A DNA stretch of 50,342 nucleotides from a virus. Position 1 is the stretch's first letter. Each line of letters opens with the position of its first letter. Location of the stretch: positions 1 through 50,342 of the IMG/VR virus record IMGVR_UViG_3300030333_004789; one strand, written 5' to 3'. Under the pieces are notes generated by a model, which was not told where the DNA came from, ran no database searches, and saw only the letters and a program-made list of their open reading frames with translations. Below are positions 2,423 through 48,889 of the stretch, piece by piece. Position numbers and translations under genes: made by a program.

Positions 2423-2864
2423 AGGAGAGGGATGGCTGGAGCCATCGGAAATTGAATGGATTAAGCGCATTAAGCGAAGCCACAAAGTTGGCTTGCTTAC
2501 TGACCCTGAAAAGGATGTCCTTGTCAGGCGAGCAGAGGGAGAAACTCTATCGTCTATAGGTTCGGACATGATGCTAACCCGGCAGCGTATTGATCAGATC
2601 AGTAAGCGTGCTGAAGCAGTTGTTCGCACCGGAAAGAGACCAAAGAGAGGAAGGCCAGCAAGAGTGCCAGATGAATACGTAATAAAATTAACCCCGCGCC
2701 AAAAGGATGCGCTTGGGAATAAAGATATATCCCGTTTGATTAGCTGGGGTGAAGAGGAGTTTGATTTCCCTTACTGGACTCACTGTTTAATGATAGTGCT
2801 TGATCAGATTGCGGAGCAAAACAACAAGAAGAATCCAACAGATAATGATGGACTGTTTGAATAA
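2409..2864 (+). CDS. DNA-binding protein with sigma-70 region 4-like helix-turn-helix
   Basis: A strong ribosome site (AAGGAGGTG, 2392-2400) precedes the ATG. Residues about 31-72 (LTDPEKDVLVRRAEGETLSS, then IGSDMMLTRQRIDQISKRAE) match the pattern of sigma-70 region 4: a Leu-x-x-x-E/K-x-V-L helix, the turn, and a recognition helix ending R-x-R-I-D-Q-I. Regions 2 and 3 of a true sigma factor are absent, so it is either an anti-terminator or sigma-like regulator, or a small HTH protein. A basic linker (TGKRPKRGRPARVP) follows. The N-terminal GEGWLEPSE is shared, almost base for base, with the RecB-like nuclease at 5114. Confidence 0.65.
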   Translation: MAPAKGEGWLEPSEIEWIKRIKRSHKVGLLTDPEKDVLVRRAEGETLSSIGSDMMLTRQRIDQISKRAEAVVRTGKRPKRGRPARVPDEYVIKLTPRQKDALGNKDISRLISWGEEEFDFPYWTHCLMIVLDQIAEQNNKKNPTDNDGLFE

Positions 2865-3100
2865 TGAAGTCACCTCGTCACACTACACACATCCGTATAG
2901 ACACTGTCTACGAAGGAACAAAGCGCACATCTACGATGTTACTCAAGGATATGGATTGCATATCTGGATGCCCCGGCAAGGTAACATATCTCAAGCTGGA
3001 GCGAGGCAATACATACAAAGAGCTAGGCTCATTTGATTTTGATGGTGAATGGCCCATCAACGAAAAAGAAAATGCAGAACAAAACCAAACAAAAGATTGA
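2864..3100 (+). CDS. Hypothetical protein, 78 aa
   Basis: Not recognised. The ATG shares one base with the preceding TAA (TAATG), a typical coupled junction. A short Cys pair (CISGC) and a beta-rich centre (GKVTYLKLERGNTYKEL) suggest a small folded domain. The competing frame 2800-3036 runs out of frame across two genes and was judged a shadow. Confidence 0.5.
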   Translation: MKSPRHTTHIRIDTVYEGTKRTSTMLLKDMDCISGCPGKVTYLKLERGNTYKELGSFDFDGEWPINEKENAEQNQTKD

Positions 3101-3263
3101 GCAAGTCAGTGATGCAATTCCTGACAAGGCATATGCAGGCATAAAGGAGGACGTGGAAAGGGGCTACAAAAAGTTTCTTGAGAAAAGAAACATGGCCCCA
3201 CGTGAACCTTTTGCCTACGGCAAGAACCTTGGAAACTTTAAGAGGGTTGACAAGGACAAGTAG
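3072..3263 (+). CDS. Hypothetical basic protein, 63 aa
   Basis: Not recognised. The frame opens at 3033, but the ATG at 3072 shortens the overlap with the previous gene and is preferred. The protein is rich in Lys and Asp, helical at the start (KTKQKIEQVSDAIPDKAYAG) and ends FKRVDKDK. It is the last gene of the first operon before the terminator region at 3276-3356. Confidence 0.5.
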   Translation: MQNKTKQKIEQVSDAIPDKAYAGIKEDVERGYKKFLEKRNMAPREPFAYGKNLGNFKRVDKDK

Positions 3264-3311
3264 GTAAGGCAGCTTGACTGCAAGCGGGTTTTCGTAGCGT
3301 TCTCCCGCACG

Positions 3312-3356
3312 CCAGTCGGGGTTTTTGCTATGCTTTCCCCCGGCTGGTTTCTTTTT
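3312..3356 (+). terminator. Rho-independent terminator after the first operon
   Basis: CCAGTCGGGG (3312-3321) pairs with CCCCGGCTGG (3338-3347) with one G-U pair, followed by TTTCTTTTT. The 5' arm overlaps a second possible stem in which GACTG (3276-3280) pairs with CAGTC (3313-3317) around an inner GCGGG/CCCGC hairpin (3284-3288, 3304-3308). The two folds exclude each other. From here to the tRNA (3357-3480) no gene is seen. Confidence 0.6.
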
Positions 3357-3480
3357 GAGTTGGCGAGTACCACGCCTCCGTCGCCCTTTAAGCGGGGATC
3401 ACTCCGCTGCGGGGACAGGGATGGTAGGACATCTTACGCTTCATTGCTGGTGGCGCAGCAACAACTCTTTTCTAATTTAT

Positions 3481-3554
3481 CGCGGGGTAGCCAAGTGGTA
3501 AGGCAGGTCTCTGCAAAAGACCCATCGTCGGTTCAATTCCGACCCTCGCGTCCA
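3481..3554 (+). tRNA. tRNA-Cys (GCA)
   Basis: Full cloverleaf read by eye. The acceptor arm is CGCGGGG (3481-3487) with CCTCGCG (3544-3550), containing one G-U pair. The D stem is a short GCC/GGC. The anticodon stem GGTCT/AGACC encloses CTGCAAA with anticodon GCA at 3513-3515, and the T arm GTCGG/CCGAC encloses TTCAATT. The discriminator is T3551 and CCA is encoded at 3552-3554. A complete gene with encoded CCA argues for a working phage tRNA rather than an att remnant. Confidence 0.92.
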
Positions 3555-3572
3555 CTTTCTAATCATACACAT

Positions 3573-3965
3573 ATGAAATACATAACACTAATAGCAATGT
3601 GTGTAGGTGTAATCACCTACATCGTAGGTCAACCTACATTCAAACCAGTACACACCACCGCCTCTTGGTACGGTGGCAAAGCAGACGGACTCGTCGGTAA
3701 ACTGACCGCATCAGGTGAACCCTTGGATGACAAGGCTCTTACCTGCGCCATGTGGGATGTTCCCATCGGGACAAGAATCAAGGTCACATACAGAAACAAG
3801 CACGTGATAGTGCGCGTCAATGACCGTGGCCCTAACAGAAAGAAGTTTCCTGACAGGGGTATTGACCTGACCAAGGAAGCGTTCTCTCGGCTGGGCGACC
3901 CAAGAATGGGCCTGCTGAAGGGAGTAAAACTTGAGGTTTATTCCTACCCAAAATCAAACAAATAA
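3573..3965 (+). CDS. RlpA-like double-psi beta-barrel protein (putative wall hydrolase)
   Basis: The frame extends upstream through the tRNA, so the ATG at 3573 is taken as the start, giving 130 aa. Residues 1-19 are a hydrophobic signal or anchor segment. The rest matches the RlpA double-psi beta-barrel: TASWYGGKADG (about 29-39), LTASGEPLDDKALTCA, PIGTRIKVTYRNK, VRVNDRGP (with the conserved Asp and Arg) and GIDLTKEAFSRLG near the end. RlpA proteins are septal lytic transglycosylases that cut denuded glycan strands in the periplasm. Here it could open the wall at lysis or entry. No SPOR domain is present. It sits apart from the other lysis-like genes at 46-47 kb. Confidence 0.8.
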   Translation: MKYITLIAMCVGVITYIVGQPTFKPVHTTASWYGGKADGLVGKLTASGEPLDDKALTCAMWDVPIGTRIKVTYRNKHVIVRVNDRGPNRKKFPDRGIDLTKEAFSRLGDPRMGLLKGVKLEVYSYPKSNK

Positions 3966-10353: not shown

Positions 10354-13300
10354 TTAAATACCTGATGGCATCGGCCTTATCGGTATTCTTCCAGAGGGCA
10401 TTCGGCTTCGCCTTGGTAGGATAATTTTCTCAACCTCTTCTTTCCCATAGATTGACTGAGGTCTCCTAAAGTCTGGGGACTTCCCAGCAACAAAGTCATC
10501 AAAGTTTTCAAGGACTCCCATTGTTTCTGTGTACCAGTCGCTATCAACCTCTTTAAACCTAGACATCTCAGACTCAAGGGCAGACTTTGAGAGCCTTGTT
10601 TTACGAGCATAGTAAAGAGGGTTTCTTCTCTTGAGTAATTGCTGAACCATTCCTTCTGCTTCAGTTACATCCATAGTCCCTATAGATGCTTCCCTTTCCC
10701 CTGAAGGCGCACCTTGCGGCGGAACAGTTTCAACAATCTTGCTAACCAACTCATTGTAAAGTCTGTTCGCAACATCAAACCTGTTAGGGTCGTTATTGTT
10801 TCGCCCGGAACTGCGAGCTATTGCAGACACCAGCTTATCTGCTTCATGTTTGTATGGTTTGATTGCGTTAGCTGCTTCAATAAGACTCATCTGTTCAAAA
10901 AACTTAACGTCTTCGGCAGGAGAGTATCTTTTGAGACCTCTCAGTGCGTTATCAAATGCAAGCCTACCCCTACCGTACTCAGAGTAATTATCTATCACTC
11001 CGGTCATTGGGTTTAATCCATTAGAGAACGTCCTTAAACCGTAAGTAGGATCACCAGTCATACTTGTCTCCATGACGTACCGCATGACTGTGCCAGACTT
11101 ACCGATCATAAGTGATCCGGGGTGCATGGCTCCCCTCATTGGCTGTCCTCCGGGTTCAGCAACAGATGAAAGCCAAGGGCCAAGCATGGGCCAAATCTCA
11201 GCAGCCAAGGCTAGGTATGCCCTAGCCTGCTCATCCTTTGGTCTTTCGTATGGGTAAGCCTTTGTTGATTTCCTCCCCAACGCCCATGAGTTCCAAAGAT
11301 TTATCAGGTACATTGCAATGTGCTGCTCTGGTATTGATCCAATACCTCCCATAGCAATTATGAACATAAGGGCAGCAAACATTTGAACAGCCCTATCCCC
11401 TCTTGTTCCCCTCCTAGAAGTTCTATTAAACGTAGAGTCTCCCATAACCTGAACAGCATTTGTACTCCACCCCATTAGGGCTAACATCAGGTTGTTTAAT
11501 TTATTTAAGCGCGTGACGAACGGCCTGTTGCTGGGAACTGCGGCATTAACAAGAGTCGCATATCCTACGGCAACAGCCGCTCTTTGCTGGTCAGTCAGAA
11601 ATTTGACAGGAGCTTTAGCTGGTCGGCTACTGTCTGTCTCCTCCATGTACTTCTTGAGTTCTCTTAAAAAGTCTCTGGCTTCTTTCTGGAAATTCGTAAC
11701 CCCTCCTCTTGAAAGCATCTCAAGAGCAGCATTAAATGAAGCCTTGTTGGCTCGCATAACTCCAAGGTATCTACCCAGAAGTTCCTCTTCTGTTATCTCC
11801 TCGTTAAGAGATACACCGGCCTCTTGCCTTTCAATAAACACATGGCGAAGTCTACTGTCTATGTTGTTTATAAAGGACATCCCAAGCTGAAACGTCTGAT
11901 CGTTTCCAACTATGTCACCCAGACGGGGGAACACTGTCTTCTGAGTAAGCGCAAGCACCGCTTCCACTTCGGCTAAAGCAGCTTGGCCAGTTCTTCCTGT
12001 TGCCTGTATTACAGCAGACGGGCTATCAAATTCATTCACGCCTCTGCCGCCTGTTGACATATCATTCTGAAAAGCTACTTCAGTTTCTATAGGTGTGATT
12101 GGCATCCCAAGCCCATACTCATCCAAGGTCTTATGTTCAATGACTCGCATTGGCATATTCCCTGCAAACTCTTCTATGACGGGAGCCAAGAACCCACGTA
12201 TTGGGGCAGTTATTTTATGTATGCCTTTTGCGTTTCTGGCTGCTTGAAACAAAGCAGGCACTGACTTAAAGAAAAGATCAGGTTTGTTGAAGTTAACTCT
12301 GGGTTTGAGTTTCTTGCCTTGGGCCGTCAAACCAACATCAACACCTAGAGCAAACTTGGGAACTGATCTGGCAGTTGAAAACAAAAACTTACCAGCAGAC
12401 ATCGGAAGCCTCCATAGCAATCCCCTCAAGTAAGCAGAAGCTCCGGTTTGTCCTTGGACAAAAGCAAGTTGACTGCCTCCTATGACAGAAGAATCCAGTC
12501 CGTTCTTTATTAGGATGCCCCCGCTAACGAGAGTGCCGCCAATCATAGTGCCAGCACCCCTCTGCCACAACTGAGGCATGAAGTCCTCTTTAGTTCCTGC
12601 GCTCCCCATTCCATATGCATTAGCAAAGGAGTCAGTGTACTGATCAAGCATCCTAATGAGGTACTTGATTTGCTGTAACGGAGGCCCGTAATAAGTGCCT
12701 TCCTCAACCAGAAGGTCTAACTCTTTTCCTATGTACTGTTGAACCCTTCTGCTCTTCCTTGTCTTATTCTCAAACTTCCCTCCCGGTCTGGTTAATTCAT
12801 CCTCCCTTCTGGCTATCCAATTAAGAAGCTCTTCCATCTCAGACCTGATGCTCTTCATCCCTTGAACTAAATTCTCAAGAGGCTTGCTTGCCCCCATTAA
12901 AGCAAACCTAGCTATGTCTGCTTGGTTCTTAAAGCCGTGCTGATAGAAATAGTAGGGAGCTATTTGGTTTCCTCTTGCCTTTGTGAAAGGAGAATCCTGT
13001 TTGAACGAGCTATAAGAAACAAGCGCGTCTGCGTTTTCGGATTCCAGAACCATAGCCTCAACGGAGTTGAGGATGTTCCTATACTCTGAGATTATAACGG
13101 CCTTTAAGTCGGCAAGAGGCAGGCCAGACTCATCACTAAGGTAGCTGGCAACATCTTCTGCGGTTTTTAATTCTCCGGTCTGTATTCTGTTAGCTGCCTG
13201 AAGGTATATTTCTTCTAAAGGAACCTCCTCGTTTCCGTAAACAACCATTGAAGCCTTCCTTATAAACTGAGGATTCCTGTCAGCTAAGAAGCTGAAGAGG

Positions 13301-16300
13301 GCAGCGGGTCTCGGATTGAAAAGCCTATCAAAAACCCCGGCCCAAACTGTGTTGTCTACGTTTCCATTCTCGTCAGCAAAATCCAAGAAGTTATTGCTGC
13401 TGGTTTTTTCACTTCTCCATGCACGTGCAAGCGCACGCCCTTGCTCACTAAACACACGTGGTAGAAATGTCTCACCCTTGGATACAGGAAGTCTTACAAT
13501 CTTCTTCTGACCTGTCTCAACCCCTTGCTCTACAATGTAAGTAGGAGTAACTGATTTATCTAAAGCAGATATCTCTTGGTTGAGGGCGTAAGCTTCTCTT
13601 GTCATCATGCCCTCATACCTAAGGAGTTCCATGTCTTCTTTTGTTACCCCTATCTCAGAGGCAAGAAGGGGGTCTCCCTCCTGAAGATTGCGCCCCTCCT
13701 CTTGGTGTGAGTGTCGCAACTCGTTACCAACTGTTGACTCCCAATTATCAATAGCATCTTGGGTTGATTCATCTGTTAGTGAGTACTTGTACCCGTGGCT
13801 CTTAGCCGCCGCAACCATTCTGTTAAGCCAAGCGTCTTCATGCCTAGCCCTCCAAGCACCCATCCTTGCAAAGTATAAGTTGTACTTGCGTGACAACTGC
13901 TTCGCAACTTCTGCTGTCCTTGCGGGTATGTTGTTAAGTAGCTGGTCAAGAACTGTAAGGTTAAGGTTAGTTAAGAACCTTCTGACATTCTGCTTAGGAT
14001 GCTGGACTAGCTCTGAGTAGTAAGTGTACTCAAGCGCACGTCTCCAGTGTTCATAGTAGTCGTAGTAAAGGTGAGTGTTCTCGCCCGTTTCAGGATTCGG
14101 GGGATGTTCAGCAAGCCAATCAAGTATGCCTTGATAGGCTACCTGCAATTTCTCAAGCTGCTCAGTGCCTTTGTCATTAGACATTATTTTTACAGGCACA
14201 AGCTGCCCCGGCCCCTTGTCACTAGGGTCAGGAACAGGAACCAAAATCTCTCCTTTTGAGTATGCCTCTGGCAAAACCCCATCAACAAGAACCAGCTTGT
14301 TATCCTTGTCTCTTCTCATAAAGGTCGGAGTCTCCATCGCCTTTATGTTTTTATTTAAAAGCATAAGGTAATCCTGAAACTCAGGGTCTTGAAGAAACTG
14401 GTATGCTATTTGTGATGCTTCGTAGTGAGACTGGATGTCTTGCAGCAAGTCGTTCACCACTTTGTAATGCTTCTGAAATACAAGTCTACGCCTTTCCTCT
14501 TGTCTGGTGTAGTCCCTTACCCTCCTAGTTGCCTTAGCAATTTCTTTTGTTTTCTTTTTAGGGTTCTGGTTCTCAACCCCCTTGATTAAATTCTGTGCAA
14601 ACTTACCTAACTGGGCCTCAGTTATTTCTTCTTCCTGTTGGAACGCTACAGCAAGGGCGTTTTCTTTTAATGAGTGGTTAGCTGCGAGCAGCCCTGCCGC
14701 CGCACGCCAGCCTTTATAGGCGAAGCTGCCGGTTTCAGGGACTGGGTTCCCTTGAAGCTTCCTCTCAAGGAAAAACTTTTCAAGTATTTGATCGGCCAGC
14801 ACAACAACATCAGCAGCAGTTTGATTTGGGTTAATTGTTAGCAAGTTGTTCCCTGTTGCGGAAGAAGCTAGGTATCTCGCCATCCTGACTGCGCGGTCTT
14901 TAACTAAAAGCTCTCCTTCAGAATCATCCTGACGCTTCACCCTTTCTGTCCGCATCCTCACTAAGGTTTTTTCATCTCCAGCTATAGCCACCAAAGCATT
15001 AAGAGCGCGTGGATCAGTTTCAGTTACGGTTAAAGATGTGAGCGCAGCATCAAGTTGTTTATTTATATCACGGCTTAACTCCTCGCTAATTGCAAGGCGA
15101 TCAAAAGCCTTAGTAGCTAACTCAAGCTGAGTCTTTACCTTCTTGGTATCAAGGCTCTCAATTAATTCTTGAGTTCTTTTTATTATGTTCTGATGCCTGC
15201 TTTGAACTCTTTTAAGCAACTGCAAACTGGAGTGCGTTAGCGCGGCAGCAAGCTCTGGCCTTCCGTCTGCAATGAAATCGTTGTACTGACGCTCGTAATT
15301 TTTTACATCAAAACCTGTCTCTGCAATAACCTGCCCAATCTCATCTGCTATCTGCATCTGCAAGATATTGTATGCACCTGTGGACAGGTCATCTGGTATG
15401 TACTTCCTGATAATTTTTTCTAAATCAGAGTAAGCAGCAACGGATTGCCCTAGCAATATGTCTCTTTGATCTGGCCTGCCAGACTTCTCTCTAAGGTCTA
15501 TTGAGTTCTTGAGCATCTTGGCACTACCAAGAGAAGATATATGGGGGACTGGGCCAGCATGGTGTCTAAGCATACCTAACGGATCGGAAGCTTGGTCAAA
15601 CTTCAAACCCTTGCCTGTCTTCAACATCCCCTCAACTTTCTTAAAGAACCTCCTGTAGTCTTGGCGTGCTTTAGCTGAAATGTTTTTACCGCTTGTGATT
15701 GCAAGGGTCATTGCATCAACAATTGAAAGAGCTACATCCAGAGCTTTCTTAAACACACCCCTCTGCGCCCTGTCGGTAAGACCTCTTGCGTAAAACTCAT
15801 CAGGATTTATAAGCGGATATATTTCCTGAAGTAACTCATTCAACACATCCGATTCAGACTGTGTTATGCTGCCGCTAATACCGCTCCCCGGTGTGCGAGA
15901 AAAGGTTCCTTTGTTTCCGATTGCGGATTTGAGTTGGTCGCCACTGAACACTGCAAGGTTTGTCCTGCCTGTCTCTGTAACAAAGTAGCTATCAAACCCA
16001 GCAAACTCCATGAACCTTGATAACGCTTCAACCCTGCTCCACTCAGCCCTGTTAAGAAAGACCTCTTCTCTTGGTTCAAACCTTACTCTTGCTCCATCAA
16101 TAGCCGCAGTAATTGTTTTTGTTGGGATACCCCCTCTTAAAAAGTGATCAACCTTAGATGTAGCAAACCCTTTAGAAAGCAACTCAACTGCCTCAAGCAC
16201 TTCCTGCTTGTCACTTTCATTCTTCTCTCTGGCTACATCATTTAATCCGCTTATCTCACTGCTCAAGAAATCCTGAGCGTAGTCAACCTCATCTTCATAT

Positions 16301-19300
16301 AGGTAGTCTACGTCAGAAAGGTCTTCAATCTCCGAGTCATCTCTTATTGATTCATCGTAGAATTTTTTAGCTCTTTCAATAGCCTCACTGGTATCCATAT
16401 CAAGAGTTATGGCTTCACCCTTCAAGGCTTTGTTTAAATATTTCTTTACCCTGTTGTTTAGTATTTGAACTTCTTCAAACGCAGCGCGTACTGCCTGCCT
16501 GTGTTCAGGCTTACGCATATCAGCAGGGTTTTCTGCCCTAACAAAAAGAGGGTAAACCCTCGTATTTAGTTTCTGGGTTTTTATCCACTCATCCATAGTG
16601 AGTTCCCCTTCAGGAACCCGGACTCCGGTCAAGACTTCTAACATGGACTCGTTAGCCTTGCCGTTTACCATGTATGGTCTCCCAATAAACTGCTGACCAA
16701 ACTCAGGGTCTGGGGATAAAAATATTCCAGTCCTTCTTGTGTTGCGCTCGTCTTCCTTTTTAACAACTTTGCCATCATGCAGTGACAGGCGAGCATCAAA
16801 GTCTACAATGTCCCCCTCGCCAACTTGCAATACATTGGTGGCATGAAACATTACCTGAGGATAATAATTGAAAAGAGTTTCTATTATGGGAACCTCAGTT
16901 GCAGGTGTCCTAGGAACATTACGCCCAAGGACATCTCCGATTTGAGGTTCGGGTTTACTGCCGTCATCATAAGCAAACTTGTACCACTTACGTGGTTGTC
17001 CATCAGGACTCACGTCAGATAAAAGCTGATGGAACTCAGGTGAGTTTGTTATTATTGAGTTGCCAAAAAATTCCCTGAACTCAGGAGTTGATACCTGAGA
17101 CTGGTTCATCTTAATTCTTGATGGGTCAACGGCCCCTACTTCAATCCAGCCCGGAGCATCTCTGTCTGGAAACATTGCATCGTCTAAAGGCTCAAAGGGG
17201 TCTTCCCCTCTGCGCTCTTCCACGGCAAGCTGTTCTTCTTCAGTTAGCTTTTCGTCTACGATATAAAATTCCAAGCCGTTGGAATAAATAACCTGACCCT
17301 TCTCTAGGGCTTTGCTAACCCTAGCTTTGTAGTCCTGTGATCCAGCTATTTCAGATTCAATCTTAGGCTCCTTGGCAATAATGATATCGCCACGGCGTTG
17401 TACGTTTCCAAATTTGCTTTCAATTTCTGACAGGTAGTCAGCCGCCTTCCTGTTCTCCTGCCAGTTGTCTGGCTTTGTCTTAGGTGAAGCCCCCCTCCCC
17501 GTCCTGTTCCCTTCAAAGATTTTAAAGTAAACAGTACCTCCGGGCTTAACTGCATTAGCTGCCTGAGCTATAACCAACTGACGACCACGCGCTTCTTTAA
17601 TCACATTAAGCACGTTGTTTACAGTAACAGTATCGGCTTGCCCGTTGGCAATCCTAGCTACTACTTGATCGTTATGCTCTACAGTCCTATTGAAGGGATC
17701 ATAAATTAAATTCTCAACGCCCAGTGATTTTAAGTATTCAGTAGCGTTGTCAAACCTACCGCCCCCTATGTCTGCGTTTATTCCACCGGGAACAAACTCA
17801 ACAAATTTAGATGTGAAGGTAGTAGGCATCCTGCCTTGGTTTATTGAAGTGTCGGCAGAAGAGATGTCTTGGGCAGGGTAGCTCCATAAGTTAAGCCCCC
17901 TTCCAATTGACCCACTAACATAATCTTCAGAAAGACCAGTGGGAGTGTCAGCCAAAAGGTCTGTTATTTTAACCGGCCTGTTCTTCAGGAAGATTGAAGA
18001 GTACAACCTGTTAGCAATGCGCCAAAACCTTTCAGGAGTAACCCCTGTTCCGTAACCATCAGAATCCATTTCGGCTTCCACTGCTTCTAGGAACTGATAT
18101 GTGAAGGTGGCTCGCTGCCACTCTTCAAAAGTCTTTGCCTTCTCAAGCTTCTTCTTTGCCTTGGCTAGGCCAGCTTTAACTTGAGACCTGTAAGCCTCGT
18201 TACCCTCCCGCTTAACGCTTTCAGGTAAAAGCTTCGCAGTGGCGTGCGCTATTTCATGCGCTATTGTTTCAGGTGAAACACCCTGAGATGTTGAGACCTC
18301 AGCTATGTTAAGCAATGTGTTGAACGTGCCATCATATTCAACCAACTGCTCACCTGTCTCACTGTCTATACTACCTGTGATCTTGAACGTAAGAAACTCT
18401 AAGACAGAAGGATCAAGACGCTTCAGGAACATCTTGGTAAACTCTCTTGCTTCTTCAGTAAGCCCGTTGTCCTTGCGGTTAATTAGGTCAAGGATTTGGT
18501 CGTACCCTTTTGCTTCTGGCAAATCAGGCACAACGGTTTTCATTGGCTTGCGCTTGCCTCTCATTACGTTACCAGAAAGAACGTCTTTTATTTCTATGAG
18601 GTGGCGAGCTAGACGCTCTGGCTCTGGATGGCCAGACCGCTTGGCAAATCTTAGAGCAGCAGCTTCGTCCTCTTCCGTCATTGAATACGGATCAAGGTTT
18701 AGTTCCTCAAGGAGCTTTGCGGCCTGTGGGTTATTCTCAATTTGCTTGGCAATATTTAATACGAACTGCCTGTCTTCTATCTCCTCCATTGAGGACTGAG
18801 ACTCTTCATCTTTAAGTTCAGTTGCCGCATTAGATATGCTGTCTTCCAGTTCTGTCCTAGCATCTTGGGTCTGAGATATAGACTCATCGTCCTGCATCAC
18901 TCCCTCTGGCAACTCGTCTTCCCTGATTTCTGTTACTTCCTGTAATTGCCCCTCTGCTGTTTCAACAGCTACAGTCTGCGTGGTTCTAGCAGTTCTAGCG
19001 GCAGGTAACTGTTCTTGCATCTGTTCATATGACTTCAGCCCAGTGGGAGCGCGGTTAACTTTTTCGTATGCAGATGTAAGCAACCTAGCTATCGCAGTTT
19101 CCTTGGTGGTGGACATCCTTGTCCTAGCCTTTAGTGACCTAGCAAGTTTAGCTACCTGCTCCTCAGGCTCTCCAACTAGATTAGAATACCTTGATGCTCC
19201 GTCTTTCTCTGTGAAGGCGTATGAACTAATAGCCTTCATTAAAAGACTAGCCAGTTGGGTTGGGCTTTCTATTGCGCCAGTGTAAACAGATGGTCTCTTC

Positions 19301-21840
19301 TGGCCTCTGGCTGTCTCCTTGGACTCGCTTAATGCTATCAAAGCACGGACGTGTTCAAGTGTGATGGAACCATCGTTCGCCCCTTTACGTAAAACTTCTT
19401 TTATGGAGGGGGCTTTAACTTTATCAATAACATCCTGTAGTTTTTCAAAAGCAGGAGATGTCTCAAGCATCCTCCGCTCTGTTGACTTGAGTAAATCTGG
19501 ATCAGTTATCTCCCACGTCTCAGTCCCTTCAGTAATTGACTTGGCAATAAACTGGGGAGTTGTAATTGATTTAGGAATCTTCGCCCCAATTAAACGCCGC
19601 TTGCTCCCCTTCCCTTCTGAAAACCTTTGTATGGCTTTGTTATCTTTTAGTGAAAGCTTCTGTATGAACTTCCCGCTTTCATCAATAACCCCAATGCTAA
19701 ACTTCTTAGACTTCCTGTTATACTTCAGGTAAGCGGGGCGACCTTGTATATCCACGCCAAGGTCTATCTGCTCAGAAGCTTTGCTCCCGTCAATAACATC
19801 AGAGTACACCTGAGTAATCTTTTTGTCCTTACCCCTCTTCCCTCTTGGGGCAGCAACAACATAGTTGTCCTCGTCTTCTGTCACCTCAGGCTCAGGAGTT
19901 ACCTCTGGAGATGGCTCAGGCTGTTTATAATCTTGGGTTATAGGAGACTCTTCAGCCTCCTCTGGAGCAGGCTCAGGTGCGGGGGCGGGAGTGATAGGTC
20001 TTGGCCCTTGCGGTGGTGCTGGCGGTGTGGTTGTCCCTATGCCTACATCCCCATCTTTTGGTGTGGTTGTCCCTATGCCTACATCCCCATCTTCAACCGT
20101 GGCAGACTCTTGCTGTTTCCTTAGTAGGCTTTCCTGTTCCTTTCGGATTCTTTCATCTGCCCTAGCCTCTGCTGTCCTTTGGTTAAATTCTGTAGCACTG
20201 ATTCCTCCTGCTTTCTCTAGGTCTTCTGACCTAACCATACCCCTTGCCTGCAAGGCTTCAAACTCCTCGGCAATATATCTTTGACGCCGATTCTCTATGG
20301 CTATTCTCTCAAGAGCCGCATCTCTTTCTTCTGGGGTGGCTGTCTTTTCTTCTCTTTCCAGTCTGGCTTCTTCAAGCTCCGCATACGCCTCCTCTTCTTC
20401 AAGTTCACGCTCTGTGAAGATAGCCAAATCGTCTACGGGTTTTGTTTCTGCTGGAGTAGTTCCGGTTGCGGCTGATTCCTCTGTGGTTGATTCCGCTCTT
20501 TCTTTACCCTCTTCTATTGCCTTCGCAATCTCTTCCTCTTGCTCCCTCTTAAACTGCAAAGACAACTTCACCTGTTCGTCAGCCATTTGGCTGGCCTGTT
20601 CTTCAGTTATCTCCGGGTTGTCTTTAAGTGCGGCAGCTTTAAATGCCTTGTGCATTGACCGCACATCACCAGCTTCGCTTATTCTTTGCTGTGTGGCAGT
20701 CATAACCACACCTGCTCCTGTGATCTTGGCTCCGACAACCCCTCCGATAAGTGCAGCATGAAGGGCTTGTCCTAGTATTTCATCTGCTGACCTATCCGGG
20801 TCATATGACATCCTTGCAACAATGCCCTGTGCAAGCTGATCAAGCCCCTCCTCAGAAGCCTCAACCCCTCCTTGAGTAATTACTGCTTTAGCAAACTCAG
20901 TAAACCCAACCTTGCCTGATGCAGTAGGGGTAAACAGTCTGTTGAGAATCCAAGCGTCACCCTTCAGGCCGTATGCAGCAACAAGCCCAGCAGTTATCAA
21001 ACCTGATGCAACAGCAGGGTAAAAAGCATCACCCTGTACCGAGTCATAAGCCTTCTTCTGAAGGGCCAGCGGGTTAGCGTCAGGGTTTTCTTTCTTCAGC
21101 CTCTCCAACTCAGTATTTGCGTACCCATCAACAGCCGCACCGTAAGTACCACCTGCTGATCTAGAGCCATGAATAAGAGAAAGAGAGCCTATGGTGGCCA
21201 TCCTTCCAGCTTTAGCCGCTGCCTCTGCACTGATGCCTGTGCTGTAAAGCGCAAAAGGTCTGGCAGCACTAGTGGTTCCAACAAAAGCACCACCACCTCT
21301 TAACCCTAATTGAACACCTTTACCTATGCCTGCGGTTCCAAGAAGAAAAGGTATCTCTTGCCCTAATGCTGTTCCGACATCCCTAGAAAAATCATACAGT
21401 CCCCGTGTAGATGCGTTTATATCTATGCTTTCATCTTGCCTGCGCTTCTCTTCCTCAAGGTTTAGTTGCGCGGCCTTCCTAAGTTCTCTTGCTTGAAACT
21501 GATCATCAGGAGAACCGAAAGCCCCTTGCCACATCTCTCCGATACCAGCAGCTTCTAAGGCAAGTGCTTCAGGAACATTTTCTAGTCCATACTGTAACCC
21601 AGTCATGGGGTTACTTAATGGGGCGGTTTGAAGATACCCCATGTCTTGGGAGGAAATGTCAGGGTCTTCCCACCAAGCTAAGTCACTAAACAGATCACTG
21701 CCGGTAATCGGCTCGTATCCTTGGCCAGTAATCTGGTCAAATCTTTCTGCGTTGAGTGTCGCCCATTCTTTTCTCTCAGGCTTTGACCACTCATTGAAAG
21801 AATCAAGAAAGTCTTCTTCAGTAAAATAGCTATTTGCCAT
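10354..21840 (-). CDS. Giant polyvalent protein: metalloprotease motif, methyltransferase-like and ADP-ribosyltransferase domains
   Basis: A 3828-aa single frame. The N-terminal 400 residues contain Gly/Ala-rich hydrophobic stretches (IPFLLGTAGIGKG, SGLITAGLVAAYGLKG). A charged low-complexity region with Pro repeats (about 430-680) follows, including two copies of a 12-residue repeat. SPETIAHEIAHATAKLLP at about 1190-1207 is a zincin HExxH motif. Residues about 1340-1470 look like a Rossmann methyltransferase (NADIGGGRFDNATEYL, VKPGGTVYFKIFEG). Residues about 1580-1985 match the ADP-ribosyltransferase domain of phage polyvalent proteins (TPEFREFFGNS, MFHATN, TGIFLSPDPEFGQQF, FVRAENPADMR, LKSAIGNKGTF). 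Long helical stretches fill the remainder, with a hydrophobic patch near 3430. Such proteins are thought to be packaged and injected with the DNA. Last gene of the minus-strand virion operon. Confidence 0.85.
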   Translation of the reverse strand: MANSYFTEEDFLDSFNEWSKPERKEWATLNAERFDQITGQGYEPITGSDLFSDLAWWEDPDISSQDMGYLQTAPLSNPMTGLQYGLENVPEALALEAAGIGEMWQGAFGSPDDQFQARELRKAAQLNLEEEKRRQDESIDINASTRGLYDFSRDVGTALGQEIPFLLGTAGIGKGVQLGLRGGGAFVGTTSAARPFALYSTGISAEAAAKAGRMATIGSLSLIHGSRSAGGTYGAAVDGYANTELERLKKENPDANPLALQKKAYDSVQGDAFYPAVASGLITAGLVAAYGLKGDAWILNRLFTPTASGKVGFTEFAKAVITQGGVEASEEGLDQLAQGIVARMSYDPDRSADEILGQALHAALIGGVVGAKITGAGVVMTATQQRISEAGDVRSMHKAFKAAALKDNPEITEEQASQMADEQVKLSLQFKREQEEEIAKAIEEGKERAESTTEESAATGTTPAETKPVDDLAIFTERELEEEEAYAELEEARLEREEKTATPEERDAALERIAIENRRQRYIAEEFEALQARGMVRSEDLEKAGGISATEFNQRTAEARADERIRKEQESLLRKQQESATVEDGDVGIGTTTPKDGDVGIGTTTPPAPPQGPRPITPAPAPEPAPEEAEESPITQDYKQPEPSPEVTPEPEVTEDEDNYVVAAPRGKRGKDKKITQVYSDVIDGSKASEQIDLGVDIQGRPAYLKYNRKSKKFSIGVIDESGKFIQKLSLKDNKAIQRFSEGKGSKRRLIGAKIPKSITTPQFIAKSITEGTETWEITDPDLLKSTERRMLETSPAFEKLQDVIDKVKAPSIKEVLRKGANDGSITLEHVRALIALSESKETARGQKRPSVYTGAIESPTQLASLLMKAISSYAFTEKDGASRYSNLVGEPEEQVAKLARSLKARTRMSTTKETAIARLLTSAYEKVNRAPTGLKSYEQMQEQLPAARTARTTQTVAVETAEGQLQEVTEIREDELPEGVMQDDESISQTQDARTELEDSISNAATELKDEESQSSMEEIEDRQFVLNIAKQIENNPQAAKLLEELNLDPYSMTEEDEAAALRFAKRSGHPEPERLARHLIEIKDVLSGNVMRGKRKPMKTVVPDLPEAKGYDQILDLINRKDNGLTEEAREFTKMFLKRLDPSVLEFLTFKITGSIDSETGEQLVEYDGTFNTLLNIAEVSTSQGVSPETIAHEIAHATAKLLPESVKREGNEAYRSQVKAGLAKAKKKLEKAKTFEEWQRATFTYQFLEAVEAEMDSDGYGTGVTPERFWRIANRLYSSIFLKNRPVKITDLLADTPTGLSEDYVSGSIGRGLNLWSYPAQDISSADTSINQGRMPTTFTSKFVEFVPGGINADIGGGRFDNATEYLKSLGVENLIYDPFNRTVEHNDQVVARIANGQADTVTVNNVLNVIKEARGRQLVIAQAANAVKPGGTVYFKIFEGNRTGRGASPKTKPDNWQENRKAADYLSEIESKFGNVQRRGDIIIAKEPKIESEIAGSQDYKARVSKALEKGQVIYSNGLEFYIVDEKLTEEEQLAVEERRGEDPFEPLDDAMFPDRDAPGWIEVGAVDPSRIKMNQSQVSTPEFREFFGNSIITNSPEFHQLLSDVSPDGQPRKWYKFAYDDGSKPEPQIGDVLGRNVPRTPATEVPIIETLFNYYPQVMFHATNVLQVGEGDIVDFDARLSLHDGKVVKKEDERNTRRTGIFLSPDPEFGQQFIGRPYMVNGKANESMLEVLTGVRVPEGELTMDEWIKTQKLNTRVYPLFVRAENPADMRKPEHRQAVRAAFEEVQILNNRVKKYLNKALKGEAITLDMDTSEAIERAKKFYDESIRDDSEIEDLSDVDYLYEDEVDYAQDFLSSEISGLNDVAREKNESDKQEVLEAVELLSKGFATSKVDHFLRGGIPTKTITAAIDGARVRFEPREEVFLNRAEWSRVEALSRFMEFAGFDSYFVTETGRTNLAVFSGDQLKSAIGNKGTFSRTPGSGISGSITQSESDVLNELLQEIYPLINPDEFYARGLTDRAQRGVFKKALDVALSIVDAMTLAITSGKNISAKARQDYRRFFKKVEGMLKTGKGLKFDQASDPLGMLRHHAGPVPHISSLGSAKMLKNSIDLREKSGRPDQRDILLGQSVAAYSDLEKIIRKYIPDDLSTGAYNILQMQIADEIGQVIAETGFDVKNYERQYNDFIADGRPELAAALTHSSLQLLKRVQSRHQNIIKRTQELIESLDTKKVKTQLELATKAFDRLAISEELSRDINKQLDAALTSLTVTETDPRALNALVAIAGDEKTLVRMRTERVKRQDDSEGELLVKDRAVRMARYLASSATGNNLLTINPNQTAADVVVLADQILEKFFLERKLQGNPVPETGSFAYKGWRAAAGLLAANHSLKENALAVAFQQEEEITEAQLGKFAQNLIKGVENQNPKKKTKEIAKATRRVRDYTRQEERRRLVFQKHYKVVNDLLQDIQSHYEASQIAYQFLQDPEFQDYLMLLNKNIKAMETPTFMRRDKDNKLVLVDGVLPEAYSKGEILVPVPDPSDKGPGQLVPVKIMSNDKGTEQLEKLQVAYQGILDWLAEHPPNPETGENTHLYYDYYEHWRRALEYTYYSELVQHPKQNVRRFLTNLNLTVLDQLLNNIPARTAEVAKQLSRKYNLYFARMGAWRARHEDAWLNRMVAAAKSHGYKYSLTDESTQDAIDNWESTVGNELRHSHQEEGRNLQEGDPLLASEIGVTKEDMELLRYEGMMTREAYALNQEISALDKSVTPTYIVEQGVETGQKKIVRLPVSKGETFLPRVFSEQGRALARAWRSEKTSSNNFLDFADENGNVDNTVWAGVFDRLFNPRPAALFSFLADRNPQFIRKASMVVYGNEEVPLEEIYLQAANRIQTGELKTAEDVASYLSDESGLPLADLKAVIISEYRNILNSVEAMVLESENADALVSYSSFKQDSPFTKARGNQIAPYYFYQHGFKNQADIARFALMGASKPLENLVQGMKSIRSEMEELLNWIARREDELTRPGGKFENKTRKSRRVQQYIGKELDLLVEEGTYYGPPLQQIKYLIRMLDQYTDSFANAYGMGSAGTKEDFMPQLWQRGAGTMIGGTLVSGGILIKNGLDSSVIGGSQLAFVQGQTGASAYLRGLLWRLPMSAGKFLFSTARSVPKFALGVDVGLTAQGKKLKPRVNFNKPDLFFKSVPALFQAARNAKGIHKITAPIRGFLAPVIEEFAGNMPMRVIEHKTLDEYGLGMPITPIETEVAFQNDMSTGGRGVNEFDSPSAVIQATGRTGQAALAEVEAVLALTQKTVFPRLGDIVGNDQTFQLGMSFINNIDSRLRHVFIERQEAGVSLNEEITEEELLGRYLGVMRANKASFNAALEMLSRGGVTNFQKEARDFLRELKKYMEETDSSRPAKAPVKFLTDQQRAAVAVGYATLVNAAVPSNRPFVTRLNKLNNLMLALMGWSTNAVQVMGDSTFNRTSRRGTRGDRAVQMFAALMFIIAMGGIGSIPEQHIAMYLINLWNSWALGRKSTKAYPYERPKDEQARAYLALAAEIWPMLGPWLSSVAEPGGQPMRGAMHPGSLMIGKSGTVMRYVMETSMTGDPTYGLRTFSNGLNPMTGVIDNYSEYGRGRLAFDNALRGLKRYSPAEDVKFFEQMSLIEAANAIKPYKHEADKLVSAIARSSGRNNNDPNRFDVANRLYNELVSKIVETVPPQGAPSGEREASIGTMDVTEAEGMVQQLLKRRNPLYYARKTRLSKSALESEMSRFKEVDSDWYTETMGVLENFDDFVAGKSPDFRRPQSIYGKEEVEKIILPRRSRMPSGRIPIRPMPSGI
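20024..20095 (-). repeat. Perfect-start tandem repeat, 2 x 36 bp
   Basis: Two adjacent 36-base units differ only at their last bases. They encode GDVGIGTTTP-type 12-residue units in the Pro-rich linker of the giant protein. The in-frame unit length suggests slippage or selection for linker length. Confidence 0.85.
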
Positions 21841-21843
21841 TGA

Positions 21844-24030
21844 TTATTCCCCCACCATAAACGCTTTTCTCACTCTGTTTAGAGCGTCTTCCCTTACTGC
21901 ATCGTCATCACTATTTAATTCCAACACGTTCCCGTCTCTGTCAAGTACTCTGTATAAACCAGAATCAATAACTTCTCTTAGGGCAGACAGAGCAGCCATT
22001 CTTTTAAGGGCGGCATCATCAGACACGCTACCCGTAGCACGGATTTGATCAGCCTTATCAGAAGCCAGTTGGAATAATTGGGCAACTGTTATTGTCGGCC
22101 TTGAATTGGGGTCTTGCATATAGGTTACAGGAGTCCCTTCTGGGAACTGCTGATAAACCGGCCTTGGCTTACCGCTTGTTGGTAATTCTCCTACTTGGTA
22201 ATTTATAGCTGGGCCGACTGGGGATTCTTCAGCGGGGCCACCTATGGGTAAAAACGGAGGAGGAGGCGTTAACGATTCAGTAACAACAGGTGTAATGGGA
22301 ACATTGTCTCCAGTAACAGGAACCGGAACAACTTCAGGTTCTGGAACAGGGACAGGAGCAGGGGCTGGAACAGGAGCAGGGGCTGGGGCTGTAGATATCT
22401 GTGTTCCTTTTGGCCGCAAAGATGTAGGCTGAGGTGGCGGCTCAAGCACCGGAAGATCACCTCGGTTGCTTGGGTCTAAAGTAAAAGGATAGTCGTCCTC
22501 ATCAAGCGGAATATTGAGTTCATCTTTCCATTCAAGCTCGTTCTCCAAAACATCGGGGTTATCACGTAAGAATCTTTGGGCAGCAGGAGAATCCTTGCTA
22601 GTTAAGGCAAACCTAACTTGCTGTTTAAATTCATCAGCAGCCCTTTGGGCCTGCCGCTCGTTGAAATTGTTTCTTAGTTCGTTAAGGTAAGCTTCTTCTG
22701 CCTGCCTGCGCTCAACCCTACTAGGATCAGCCAAGTCTTGGGCGTCCCTGAAAGCCGCATCTCTCTGCCTTCTTTGATCATACTCAAAAGCCCTCTCCTC
22801 CGGGCTTGTAAAATAATCAGGCAAAGAGTCCACCACCAGTTGGCCACGGCTGTTGTAAAATGGCCTGCTTGTAGTCCTTCTAGGTTGAGTGGGCATGGTT
22901 GGCTGCACGCCCGTGCTGGTTGTTAAAGGATTAGGACTAGTAATCGGAGTTGAGGGAGAAGGCGGAGGGGGTGGTGGCGGTTCATTGTCTTTATTGAAAA
23001 GGTTCTCTATGTCCCACCTGTGTTGATACCTACCACCGCCACCTTCTGTAAAAGGATTAACCCACTTCCCTTCTTTTTGCGTGTCAAAAAAGTAAGGGTT
23101 TTGCATCCGCAGTATATTTTGTTGATTGTTAATGACGGCAAGCTGACTTTCGTTTTGCCCCCTTTTGGAATCTTCCAACTTCTGCCAAGCTTCAAGCACA
23201 TTATTTGCCTGAACTTCCCTGCTGTCTTGAATTGTATTCCACTCCCTAGCTTCTGCTTCAAGGCTGGTTTTTAATGGGTTGGAAAATGTAGAGCTAGAAA
23301 TATTAGAAGCATCCCAGCTTATCTGATCTCCCGATTTTAAATAATCAGCAACCCTACTAGCTGACTCTTTCTCTGCCGTGAACGCCTGCCTCTCTTTTGA
23401 AGTCTGATAGTCCGCTTCCCTTCTCGCAGCTTGATCAAGGGCAAAGCTAAAAGCATCTAGTTGCTCTGGTGTTCCACCGGCCCTAGCATATCCCGACAAT
23501 AGTTTTGTCTTGTTTGCTGACGTGGGGTTCTGACTGTATCTACCTAAAGCAGAAGAGCCGTAAGCACTAAGATTTTTTGCTTGTTTCCTCTCAGCTAAGT
23601 CTTGCTGCCTAGCCTGATAAGACATGGCCCTGCTTTGGGCTTGGCTCATAGCCCTCAACCTGTTGTTCTCACGCATCCTCTGCTCCTGAAGCAGCTTCAT
23701 TGCGAAGTCTCTCTTAGCTGCTTCAAGCTTTAACCTCTGCTGGTTGTTAGCAACAATAGCCTGCCTTTCCTTATTAGGGTCTCCTCCAGTTGCGGCAACA
23801 GCCTGAGAGAAAGAACCGTACGTGGCCTCAGGGTCTTCATTCTCAAACCAATACGAGCCACCTCCAGCGGCAAGGTCATCAGGTATATAGTAATCTGGCT
23901 CAATAAACCCTTGGGTCATTCCTACTGGAGCAGTGTTCCTTGCCCGCCCGGAACCTATGCCGCCTCTGTACTCATCCATATAGGGCAGGGCGTTTCTTGT
24001 TTTCCTCGCTATGTCGTAGAAAGTTGCCAT
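21844..24030 (-). CDS. Putative internal/ejection virion protein, Gln- and Pro-rich, 728 aa
   Basis: Not recognised by family. The first 130 residues include MATFYDIARKTRNALPYMDE and a long Arg/Gln/Ala helix (LKLEAAKRDFAMKLLQEQRM). The middle is Gln/Asn-rich, a poly-Pro stretch (EPPPPPPPSPS) lies near 350, and an AP/VP repeat near 550-570 precedes a helical tail. It lies between the giant protein and another Gln-rich protein and follows the motif at 24031. Its size, composition and position resemble the internal virion proteins that precede the large ejected protein in podoviruses; this is inference from position. Confidence 0.6.
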   Translation of the reverse strand: MATFYDIARKTRNALPYMDEYRGGIGSGRARNTAPVGMTQGFIEPDYYIPDDLAAGGGSYWFENEDPEATYGSFSQAVAATGGDPNKERQAIVANNQQRLKLEAAKRDFAMKLLQEQRMRENNRLRAMSQAQSRAMSYQARQQDLAERKQAKNLSAYGSSALGRYSQNPTSANKTKLLSGYARAGGTPEQLDAFSFALDQAARREADYQTSKERQAFTAEKESASRVADYLKSGDQISWDASNISSSTFSNPLKTSLEAEAREWNTIQDSREVQANNVLEAWQKLEDSKRGQNESQLAVINNQQNILRMQNPYFFDTQKEGKWVNPFTEGGGGRYQHRWDIENLFNKDNEPPPPPPPSPSTPITSPNPLTTSTGVQPTMPTQPRRTTSRPFYNSRGQLVVDSLPDYFTSPEERAFEYDQRRQRDAAFRDAQDLADPSRVERRQAEEAYLNELRNNFNERQAQRAADEFKQQVRFALTSKDSPAAQRFLRDNPDVLENELEWKDELNIPLDEDDYPFTLDPSNRGDLPVLEPPPQPTSLRPKGTQISTAPAPAPVPAPAPVPVPEPEVVPVPVTGDNVPITPVVTESLTPPPPFLPIGGPAEESPVGPAINYQVGELPTSGKPRPVYQQFPEGTPVTYMQDPNSRPTITVAQLFQLASDKADQIRATGSVSDDAALKRMAALSALREVIDSGLYRVLDRDGNVLELNSDDDAVREDALNRVRKAFMVGE
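22330..22400 (-). repeat. Ala-Pro/Val-Pro coding repeat
   Basis: On the plus strand the DNA cycles through GGAACAGGAGCAGGGGCT-like units, encoding APAPAPVPAPAPVPVPEP on the minus strand. It is a degenerate hinge-like repeat in the 728-aa virion protein. Confidence 0.7.
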
Positions 24031-24050: not shown

Positions 24051-25028
24051 CTAGACTCTTTCAAGAACCCTAGGGTAATTGTTGTATAATGGTGCTGCGT
24101 ATTGGTATCCGTACAAACCGTTCAGGGGATTAACTCCGTACCCCAAGAAAGGCTGCTTTGGGAATCTGGCAAACGGTTCAGTCTGGCCCATGTCGTAATT
24201 AACATATCCCGTATTGTATCCCGGTGCTGCGTAAGGCTGCATACCCTGAGCCTCAAGTGCTTCTTGGTATTCACGCGCTTGCGTGTACTCTGGGGTCTCC
24301 GCTAGATGGTAAATCTGATTAGTCCTATCTATCTGGCCTAGCTGCGCCAGCCTGTTAAGCTGCTGTCCTTGCATCTGGTTCCTTGCTTGGATAGGCATAA
24401 GCTCCCTTGCCGCAAGTGAATCCATTATCCCCTGACGCCTGCCAATGTTTGCAAGCTGCGCTCTGTTTAGGTAGTCCAAGTCAGCACGCCGTTGATTGGC
24501 AAGCTGGTTTGCAATGCCAACCTCAATTTGCTCACTCCTGTCAGCGGCCATTCTGTCCAATCTGCTGCCAGCCCCGCCACGGCTCCTAAAACCAGCAAGC
24601 TTTAAGTCTCTTCTGAGGTTCTGGCGTGCCAAGTCTCCTGCTCCACGCAAGGCACTGGCCTGTTCTGCCCTCAAGGAATCCAGCTTAGACTCCAGCCCAC
24701 CCCCGTATATGCCAGAAAGATAGTCGGCCTCCTCTGAGGCGTACCCCTTAACTGCACCCTTGTTCAAAGAGCCTTCATACCGGCGCAAAGCTGATTCTGT
24801 TTTCCTGTCTTGAGATGCCTGTCCTCCAAGAATATCCCGAACCCTGTCGGCAAGTTCTTGATTTCTTGGTGTGGCAACGGTTTCAAACGGAGCTTGTTTT
24901 TGCTGCTGAGATTGACCCGAAACAAGAGGCATGGCAAAGCGGTTGTCCCCTGTATTACCAATCCCTACAGAAGTGCCAATGCCTTGTCTTTTTTTATCTT
25001 GCAGCCTGTTGAAATAATTCACAGCCAT
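24051..25028 (-). CDS. Putative internal virion protein, 325 aa
   Basis: Not recognised. N-terminal Gln-rich stretch (SGQSQQQKQAPF), then a long helical region rich in Arg, Ala and Leu (about 70-230; for example LDSLRAEQASALRGAGDLAR and MAADRSEQIEVGIANQLANQ). A Tyr/Pro/Gly-rich tail ends LYGYQYAAPLYNNYPRVLERV. The pattern fits a structural adaptor or ejection protein like T7 gp14 in size class, but no sequence link can be claimed. Directly upstream in transcription of the 728-aa protein. Confidence 0.6.
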   Translation of the reverse strand: MAVNYFNRLQDKKRQGIGTSVGIGNTGDNRFAMPLVSGQSQQQKQAPFETVATPRNQELADRVRDILGGQASQDRKTESALRRYEGSLNKGAVKGYASEEADYLSGIYGGGLESKLDSLRAEQASALRGAGDLARQNLRRDLKLAGFRSRGGAGSRLDRMAADRSEQIEVGIANQLANQRRADLDYLNRAQLANIGRRQGIMDSLAARELMPIQARNQMQGQQLNRLAQLGQIDRTNQIYHLAETPEYTQAREYQEALEAQGMQPYAAPGYNTGYVNYDMGQTEPFARFPKQPFLGYGVNPLNGLYGYQYAAPLYNNYPRVLERV

Positions 25029-31746: not shown

Positions 31747-32709
31747 TTGGTTTAACTTCAGCTTTATTGCATTCGGGAGGTACTTCTGGCAAATGTATTC
31801 CATCAATTTACCGTGTGCTTCCTTTGTTGACCGCATCAGGCATTCGTATAAAGACCTAACTAGGTTGTACGACTCGTCTGCTTGCTCTTCTTTCGGCCTT
31901 AGGTGTACGTGAAAGCTGACCATCTTGCTCCTGCCGGTTCGGCCATTGATATAAATATCATCGCTAACATCAAACCCTAGGTTCTTTAAAATTAAATCTA
32001 TCTTTGCCCCAAGGTATGGGACTGGAGCGTTCCAAGGGCCGTAGTTGTGACCCTCCCCAAAAAGAGAATACAGCCTGTCCCCCTTGAGTTTTGTCATTGG
32101 GATGTCACTGCACTTCCCGCAGTTGTAAGGCCCGTCCCCCTCCTTTAATTCTGCGCTGAGTTCCTTCTTGTAAAGGCTTCGCCAATCTTCTGGGAACTGA
32201 GGGTCATCTGAGAAAATGTACGCGCCCCCACACACTGTTTTGTGCCTACTCAAGACTAGGTTGGACTTGAAGTTAGAACTAACAGGGTTAACAAGAATAA
32301 CATCAGCATCCAAGAACAGGGTATTCCCGCTTTCTTTTATAGCTTTGGACATGACATCCATCTTGTAGCTCTGGCTCTCAGGACTCCACCAAGATTTTGT
32401 TAGCCTTGGGCAGTTCGGCCATATCTTGTCCGGGCTGGAGGTGTATTCCTTTCTCCTGTCATGTTTCTCCTTCTCGGAAATAACAGTAATATTGATGTTA
32501 TCAGGGATGTCTTCTTCCAAGCAGTCTAGTGCCTCTTCGTCAGCAATCATGTATATCTTTTTGTCTGACTGAAGGCGTATGCTTTCTGTTAGCAAGGCGG
32601 CTTCGTAGCCGTGCCTGCCGATTGCAACAGTGCAGAATGAGTTAAGATTGCTAGGCCCGTCCTCACTTTGCACGGGCATATCTTTCTTCAACTCATTTAC
32701 GTTTTCCAT
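31741..32709 (-). CDS. GT-A fold glycosyltransferase-like protein, 322 aa
   Basis: FCTVAIGRHGYEAALLTESI (about 26-45) resembles the nucleotide-sugar-binding start of GT8-like transferases, and NTLFLDADVILVNPV (about 129-143) has the acidic DAD metal motif followed by the hydrophobic strand. GGAYIFSDD and FHVHLRP are further typical positions. It would transfer a sugar to an unknown acceptor in the cytoplasm. Finding it between the VWA virion gene and the fibre genes suggests that its acceptor is a virion protein, but host cell-surface or DNA modification are also possible. It overlaps the VWA gene by one base. Confidence 0.65.
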   Translation of the reverse strand: MENVNELKKDMPVQSEDGPSNLNSFCTVAIGRHGYEAALLTESIRLQSDKKIYMIADEEALDCLEEDIPDNINITVISEKEKHDRRKEYTSSPDKIWPNCPRLTKSWWSPESQSYKMDVMSKAIKESGNTLFLDADVILVNPVSSNFKSNLVLSRHKTVCGGAYIFSDDPQFPEDWRSLYKKELSAELKEGDGPYNCGKCSDIPMTKLKGDRLYSLFGEGHNYGPWNAPVPYLGAKIDLILKNLGFDVSDDIYINGRTGRSKMVSFHVHLRPKEEQADESYNLVRSLYECLMRSTKEAHGKLMEYICQKYLPNAIKLKLNQA

Positions 32710-48888: not shown

Positions 48889-48889
48889 T

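Follow-up and report, generated by a model that had tools for sequence, protein, structure and literature searches.

A phage genome that devotes 3828 codons to one protein at the end of its virion gene block raises the question of what such a protein is made of and what it may do in infection. The window, i.e. the whole stretch of DNA analysed here, is a 50,342-bp IMG/VR virus record, in which a search for terminal repeats found none. It contains a terminase profile match, and the order of genes around the giant frame is the same in a second record (G004); this portal-terminase phage encodes a giant protein among its late virion genes.

The giant protein, its relatives and a variable slot

The giant polyvalent-type protein (P0001) is encoded at 10354–21840 on the minus strand, starts with ATG and has homologues in relatives. 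An earlier note on this DNA had described an uninterrupted frame of 3828 aa without naming its strand, and the frame indeed has no internal stop; the other five frames of the same stretch contain 127–397 stops. Since these frames are so often interrupted and the giant frame is conserved in relatives, it is not a product of chance. It was also correctly placed as the last virion gene, closing the minus-strand virion block after two smaller frames on the same strand: a 325-aa Ala/Gln/Arg-rich ORF (24051–25028; 77% amino acid identity in G004), which is a candidate small internal protein, and a 728-aa ORF (21844–24030), a candidate second internal or ejection protein as judged by position only, with no profile above noise.

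Full-length searches of the phage collection with the giant protein returned nothing but its methyltransferase module, and no near relative was found among named phages. Relatives were reached via the terminase (29 IMG/VR loci); 14 of their records were searched, and eight of these contained giant homologues. A profile of the giant C-terminus detected 13 contigs besides the window in which close relatives are represented by C-terminal or N-terminal parts, and beyond these one distant relative, L077. The complete homologues range from 3160 to 4833 aa in length. The blocks that aligned pairwise each time, with gaps between them, were the N-terminal region (residues 32–590, 20071–21747, minus strand, with hydrophobic stretches at 271–294 and 355–383), a middle block (window residues ~640–910), the EEIAH/HEIAH domain (1100–1236) and the C-terminal scaffold (residues 1985–3828, 10357–15888, minus strand, with a hydrophobic stretch at 3482–3506). 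The last block corresponds to the more than 1800 unassigned helical residues of the earlier note: it has no profile match, is predicted to be mostly helical in a low-confidence model, and is conserved in all relatives.

The stretch between the EEIAH/HEIAH domain and the C-terminal block differs greatly between family members. Cargo is absent from this slot in L059, L060, L061, L072, L073 and L076, the distance between the two blocks being 1–19 residues in the first three and at most 30 in L072 and L076. The slot comprises 416–427 residues in L057/L058 (an ADP-ribosyltransferase, ART, without a methyltransferase), 615 in L056 (methyltransferase and ART), 749 in the window protein (methyltransferase, ~140 extra residues, ART) and 1672 in L069 (ART, DUF7178 and a second type of methyltransferase). 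As judged by these alignments, the comparison shows that the ends of the carrier are kept across the family, with a slot that is either empty or filled with 416–1672 aa of varied cargo. A second variable stretch precedes the EEIAH domain and holds a ParB-like segment in L060. Residues 678–792 of L057, a segment of 115 aa, are missing from its near-twin L058, the rest being ~95% identical in DNA.

Methyltransferase and ADP-ribosyltransferase modules

The methyltransferase-like segment previously proposed at about residues 1340–1470 proved real, although its extent is greater: by motif and Pfam profile, residues 1308–1501 are assigned to the class I SAM methyltransferases. Methyltransf_23 matched the window module with E = 4.1e-4, which is under the gathering score, and 28 of 31 members of its family, the best at 8.7e-12. 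PHROGs placed a family of unknown function, phrog_14016, at residues 1324–1418 of the giant chain. The family signature begins with an N-terminal LWxxPxQxxxSAxTSIN, followed by DIGGGRFDNA, DPFNR and NNVLNVI, the last occupying the motif IV position. DIGGG (at 1357 in the window), read as the glycine-rich motif I, and DPFNR (at 1381), with the acidic residue expected behind strand 2, are invariant or nearly so in the 31 sequences (D-I-G-G-G and D-P-x-N-R). The NPP(Y/F) motif was searched for in the module and is absent, which sets the module apart from the DNA-adenine type, EcoKI/TaqI-like with NPP(Y/F), that is described as the predominant methyltransferase of polyvalent proteins (PMC5512222). 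By analogy with related domain families, its target is probably a protein, RNA or small molecule.

Relatives of the module were found at 71 IMG/VR loci, in ORFs of up to 300 aa (13 loci), 300–1000 aa (15) and more than 1000 aa (43), some of these ORFs ending with the contig. In alignment A7 of these phrog_14016 or TSIN methyltransferases, the window module is a member with 94% identity to that of L056 and 40–57% to the other 70 loci. Most members are embedded in other giants, and the carrier described here has them only in the window and in L056. With 71 phage loci, often beside zincin and ART modules, the family makes a clear target for biochemistry.

The close match to L056, which lies in record G004, stands out from the rest of the two genomes. 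The exchanged METHYLTRANSFERASE module (methyltransferase; residues 1308–1501, 17338–17917, minus strand) is 94.1% identical in DNA over 581 bp, with 19 synonymous and 13 non-synonymous codon differences, whereas the best long stretch in the remaining 35 kb of G004 reaches 75.5% (terminase-portal region) and the rest of the giant protein only 39% amino acid identity. Since these phages are otherwise ~75% identical at most, the module must have been exchanged recently. The module is missing from the backbones of L057/L058 (...DSIAGSVAAF...) and, at the corresponding position, from that of L066 (...DYISGSVAMP...). Because the same slot of far-apart phages holds a module of 94% identity and relatives preserve the empty site, the event is directly legible in the sequences. 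The comparison shows a recent in-frame exchange of one methyltransferase domain, between divergent phages and in the same slot; the alternative would be an assembly chimaera. A phage protein with several weapons, of a class already known, thus seems to have been caught in the act of changing its payload.

The second enzymatic module is an ART, whose existence the earlier note had correctly recognised; its limits are nearer to residues 1641–1985 than to the proposed 1580–1985. This ART-PolyVal domain (residues ~1641–1985, 15886–16920, minus strand) contains FHAT at 1665–1669, GFD at 1948–1950 and VFSGDQLKSAIGN near its end. It gave the sole Pfam match in the whole giant chain: PF18760 (ART-PolyVal, Tox-ART-HYD2) at residues 1943–1980 with E = 1.7e-5, covering only profile positions 102–140 and scoring under the gathering threshold. 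The same profile was matched from 35 to 140 by L056 (E = 1.5e-6), and over the gathering score by a slice of L057 (31.9 vs 31.2 bits). The ART class has a His on strand 1, a Tyr on strand 2 and an Asp on strand 5. In a six-member alignment, the FHAT His is kept in all five sequences that cover it and the GFD Asp in six of six. At the position expected for the Tyr, the residue is F, H, L or Y according to how the sequences are aligned, and the local alignment to the RPP1 prototype is weak and ambiguous. From these residues, ART catalysis in the window protein appears likely, and by analogy with the domains of PMC5512222 and with T4 Alt the enzyme would modify host proteins. A tblastn search with the L066 ART against named phages gave no relatives.

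With at least two unrelated effector domains (methyltransferase 1308–1501 and ART ~1641–1985), the window protein falls within the class of polyvalent proteins described by Iyer et al. 2017 (PMC5512222). It shares with that class the combination of several unrelated enzymatic domains in a giant late-gene protein with a virion context, and more specifically ART-PolyVal, a methyltransferase and a zincin-like motif. It differs in its methyltransferase, which is not of the adenine type, in that no LPD domain was matched, in a zincin motif that reads EExxH in relatives, and in the recent cassette exchange shown at the DNA level. The earlier note had suggested that the triple combination may be unreported, but this does not hold: the prophage protein WP_004096050.1 of Acetonema longum, joining methyltransferase, zincin and ART, was described in 2017 (PMC5512222), and L107, on an unrelated IMG/VR contig, again has HExxH, a TSIN-type methyltransferase and ART-PolyVal in one ORF. 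To our knowledge, the literature searched does not describe the carrier family, the methyltransferase family inside polyvalent proteins, a cassette exchange at the DNA level or the border peptides treated below. ART-PolyVal is split in L107 (2194–10263): the TSIN-type methyltransferase is inserted after its strand 1 (PLIVYHITLD) and ahead of the rest of the domain (GYHFTPDQ...).

The EEIAH/HEIAH domain and the border peptides

The HExxH protease claimed near residue 1195 was borne out in part. The motif HEIAH is present at 1195–1199 (18244–18258, minus strand), in a conserved domain at residues 1100–1236 (18133–18543, minus strand; possibly zincin-like) with a local AF2 confidence of ~80 in its helices. 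However, the motif reads EEIAHFTAKLLP in every relative carrying the domain (EEIAH in 10 of 10 sampled), and a targeted search for further sequences with the first His in this type of domain found none beyond the window. The canonical first zinc ligand is therefore restricted to the window. A low-quality AF2 model of the domain has two strands, the motif helix and then a long helix, an order compatible with the zincin core of two strands, (H/E)ExxH helix and long helix described in PMC5512222; no third ligand, which in zincins is a downstream Glu on the next helix, was recognised. The (H/E)ExxH motif also falls in register with the HEILHGVTAKKI zincins of unrelated giants, a match of 20 columns only with a profile probability of 4.7%, and Pfam and PDB profile searches of the domain gave no zincin support. 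We regard the domain as zincin-like and its activity as doubtful.

Short peptides of a common pattern, [LIV][AS]GS[IV], lie around the modules. The window protein has two exact copies, VSGSI between the HEIAH domain and the methyltransferase (1308–1312, 17905–17919) and ISGSI between the ART and the C-terminal scaffold (1988–1992, 15865–15879). Two others are degenerate, LSGNV preceding the HEIAH domain (1088–1092, 18565–18579; LAGSI in L056, L057 and L058) and IAGSQ between the methyltransferase and the ART (1498–1502, 17335–17349), where the right exchange breakpoint lies; all four are on the minus strand. L056 has four copies in 3574 residues against 0.12 expected from shuffles, all of them on module borders: before EEIAH, between EEIAH and methyltransferase, between methyltransferase and ART, and after the ART. 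It should be underlined that the pattern was picked after the methyltransferase flanks had been seen, so that only the two outer L056 copies count as independent evidence.

An unbiased repeat scan of the giants revealed five copies of VGT(S/A)FG in the unrelated methyltransferase-bearing protein L086, two of them touching the methyltransferase on either side, and three of RFSPxR in L088, where RYSVKR stands just ahead of the methyltransferase. In L086 (1–9579) the copies are at 158, 1042, 1350, 1975 and 2157, and they set off the segment with HEYLH (891) from that with EEMRH (1170). In a controlled test of the methyltransferase flanks in 23 proteins, only L086 and L143 beat every swapped-pair control, L056 (entered as L081) standing at ~3%; the flank window was cut in three ways, the last of which starts at the conserved LW and was chosen after the first two had lost the L086 repeat. 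With 2 of 23 proteins beating all controls, flanking repeats were rejected as a general feature of these methyltransferases. The idea of a general border motif in methyltransferase-bearing giants (R[FY]S, or hydrophobic-x-[FY]-S) was likewise rejected, the matches being mostly at chance level.

The border peptides may be cut sites that release the modules, traces left by the recombination that exchanges these modules, or both, a proposal more tentative than those on packaging and ejection. That they are recombination scars or linker leftovers only, with no processing function, has in our view slightly less than an even chance. The breakpoints of the methyltransferase exchange fall within border-peptide codons (GGGTCAAT and GGATCA), the peptide is missing where the slot is empty, it was not found at comparable places beside modules in other virion proteins of the window and G004, and most unrelated methyltransferase-bearing giants have no such repeats. 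What scars do not readily account for is that the codons vary between copies, synonymously within one protein, and yet preserve the peptide, and that the domains next to the two outer L056 copies show no trace of an exchange in recent times. A broader proposal, which we consider rather unlikely, is that polyvalent giants are polyproteins in which a lineage-specific border peptide ([LIV][AS]GS[IV] here, VGTSFG in L086, R[FY]S[PV]xR in L088) would serve both as the cut site freeing the effectors and as the seam of cassette exchange. If the peptides are cut sites, it becomes possible to test how several effectors are delivered through a narrow tail. Among the phage proteins tested, none was recognised as a prohead protease. 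The EEIAH/HEIAH domain itself might be an active protease of the zincin type and cleave the giant protein at these peptides; the order of helix and strands in the low-confidence model, the register with the HEILHGVTAKKI zincins and the position of the peptides exactly on module edges would fit such a role. We hold this to be improbable, since the first zinc-binding His is missing in all ten relatives, including L056 and L057 with the best border peptides, and neither the profile probability nor Pfam and PDB point to a zincin.

Proposed delivery and comparison with ejection proteins

Taken as a whole, the giant protein is probably a virion-borne polyvalent protein in which a conserved carrier offers a slot for exchangeable effectors, and that would be packaged, enter the host and act there through its effectors; the variable slot, the methyltransferase exchange, the methyltransferase family and the late-gene position, as in N4-like phages, speak for this reading. 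The carrier comprises the N-terminal region, where hydrophobic stretches occur, as well as the EEIAH/HEIAH domain and the helical C-terminus of 1850 residues, and the slot in the window holds a class I SAM methyltransferase and an ART. By analogy with N4 vRNAP and T7 gp16, the protein may be packaged and enter the host with the DNA, the carrier assisting ejection or membrane passage by way of the hydrophobic stretches (271–294, 355–383, 3482–3506) and the helical C-terminus. Once in the cytoplasm, the ART would modify proteins of the host; the methyltransferase would act on a macromolecule of host or phage origin, DNA adenine being an improbable target.

Like an ejection protein of the T7 gp16 type, the giant follows smaller internal-protein candidates, has hydrophobic stretches and would be expected to act in ejection. 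It differs from gp16 in having no sequence match and no lytic transglycosylase domain, the fold comparison resting on a poor C-terminal model; the phage has a DPBB protein that stands apart from the giant (3330–3965). AlphaFold models of residues 1095–1990 and 2524–3624 were both poor (pLDDT 45 and 56), and Foldseek searches with them gave no usable PDB match and no solved relative. A pattern search of bacterial and archaeal genomes for the giant C-terminus found no relative and thus no clue to the host.

Two other explanations of the carrier were weighed against the reading as a carrier with active effectors. The carrier could be an ejectosome channel of the T7 gp16 or N4 gp50 type, with the slot domains as passengers of little or no activity. 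The gene order fits an ejection-protein block, the carrier is conserved while its cargo is dispensable (absent in the six relatives named above), the ART Tyr position is variable and HExxH is lost in relatives. Inert passengers would hardly explain why one slot repeatedly and independently acquired enzymes, or why the catalytic motifs of the methyltransferase are intact after transfer and invariant or nearly so across 31 diverse members, and we judge this explanation to be unlikely. Far less probable still is that the giant represents a variant N4 virion RNA polymerase. N4 gp50 and RPP1 CBX87992.1 (Schitoviridae) resemble it in their ~3500 residues, their place as last virion-block gene, a large helical C-terminal domain, and HExxH, with ART modules in RPP1; ART and HExxH are also known beside N4-like RNA polymerases (PMC5512222), and the injected vRNAP of the N4-like Roseovarius Plymouth podovirus 1 is encoded at the same late virion-block position. 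However, no RNA polymerase profile was found in the giant protein, the sole fold match with E below 0.001 was one unnamed viral protein, and the profile comparison of its C-terminus with RPP1 vRNAP gave a probability of 0.1%, on which a relation of this C-terminus was rejected. For N4 vRNAP, a 2025 preprint (PMC12633501) describes an HExxH subdomain and a C-terminal part that is mostly helical and has no structural relatives; this makes a useful comparison, even though no sequence relation to an N4-like vRNAP is detectable for the giant C-terminus.

Several other genes of the phage gave recognisable matches. The terminase (44251–45723) has its best named relatives among haloarchaeal viruses at ~27% identity, and the phage group appears to be without a named member. 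Von Willebrand A-type domains occur in two proteins (32709–35279 and 4–783), of which one belongs to the virion block, and a calcineurin-like phosphoesterase domain (PF00149, E = 6e-4) lies at the C-terminus of a 606-aa structural-block protein (35279–37099). The ORF of the DPBB lytic transglycosylase-like protein overlaps a tRNA-Cys at 3481–3554, so its true start is probably downstream. A 155-aa protein (48466–48933) matches the beta-domain of mechanosensitive channels (PF00924, E = 7e-4), and a spike-like protein (49111–50301) ends in a Peptidase_S74 intramolecular chaperone domain.
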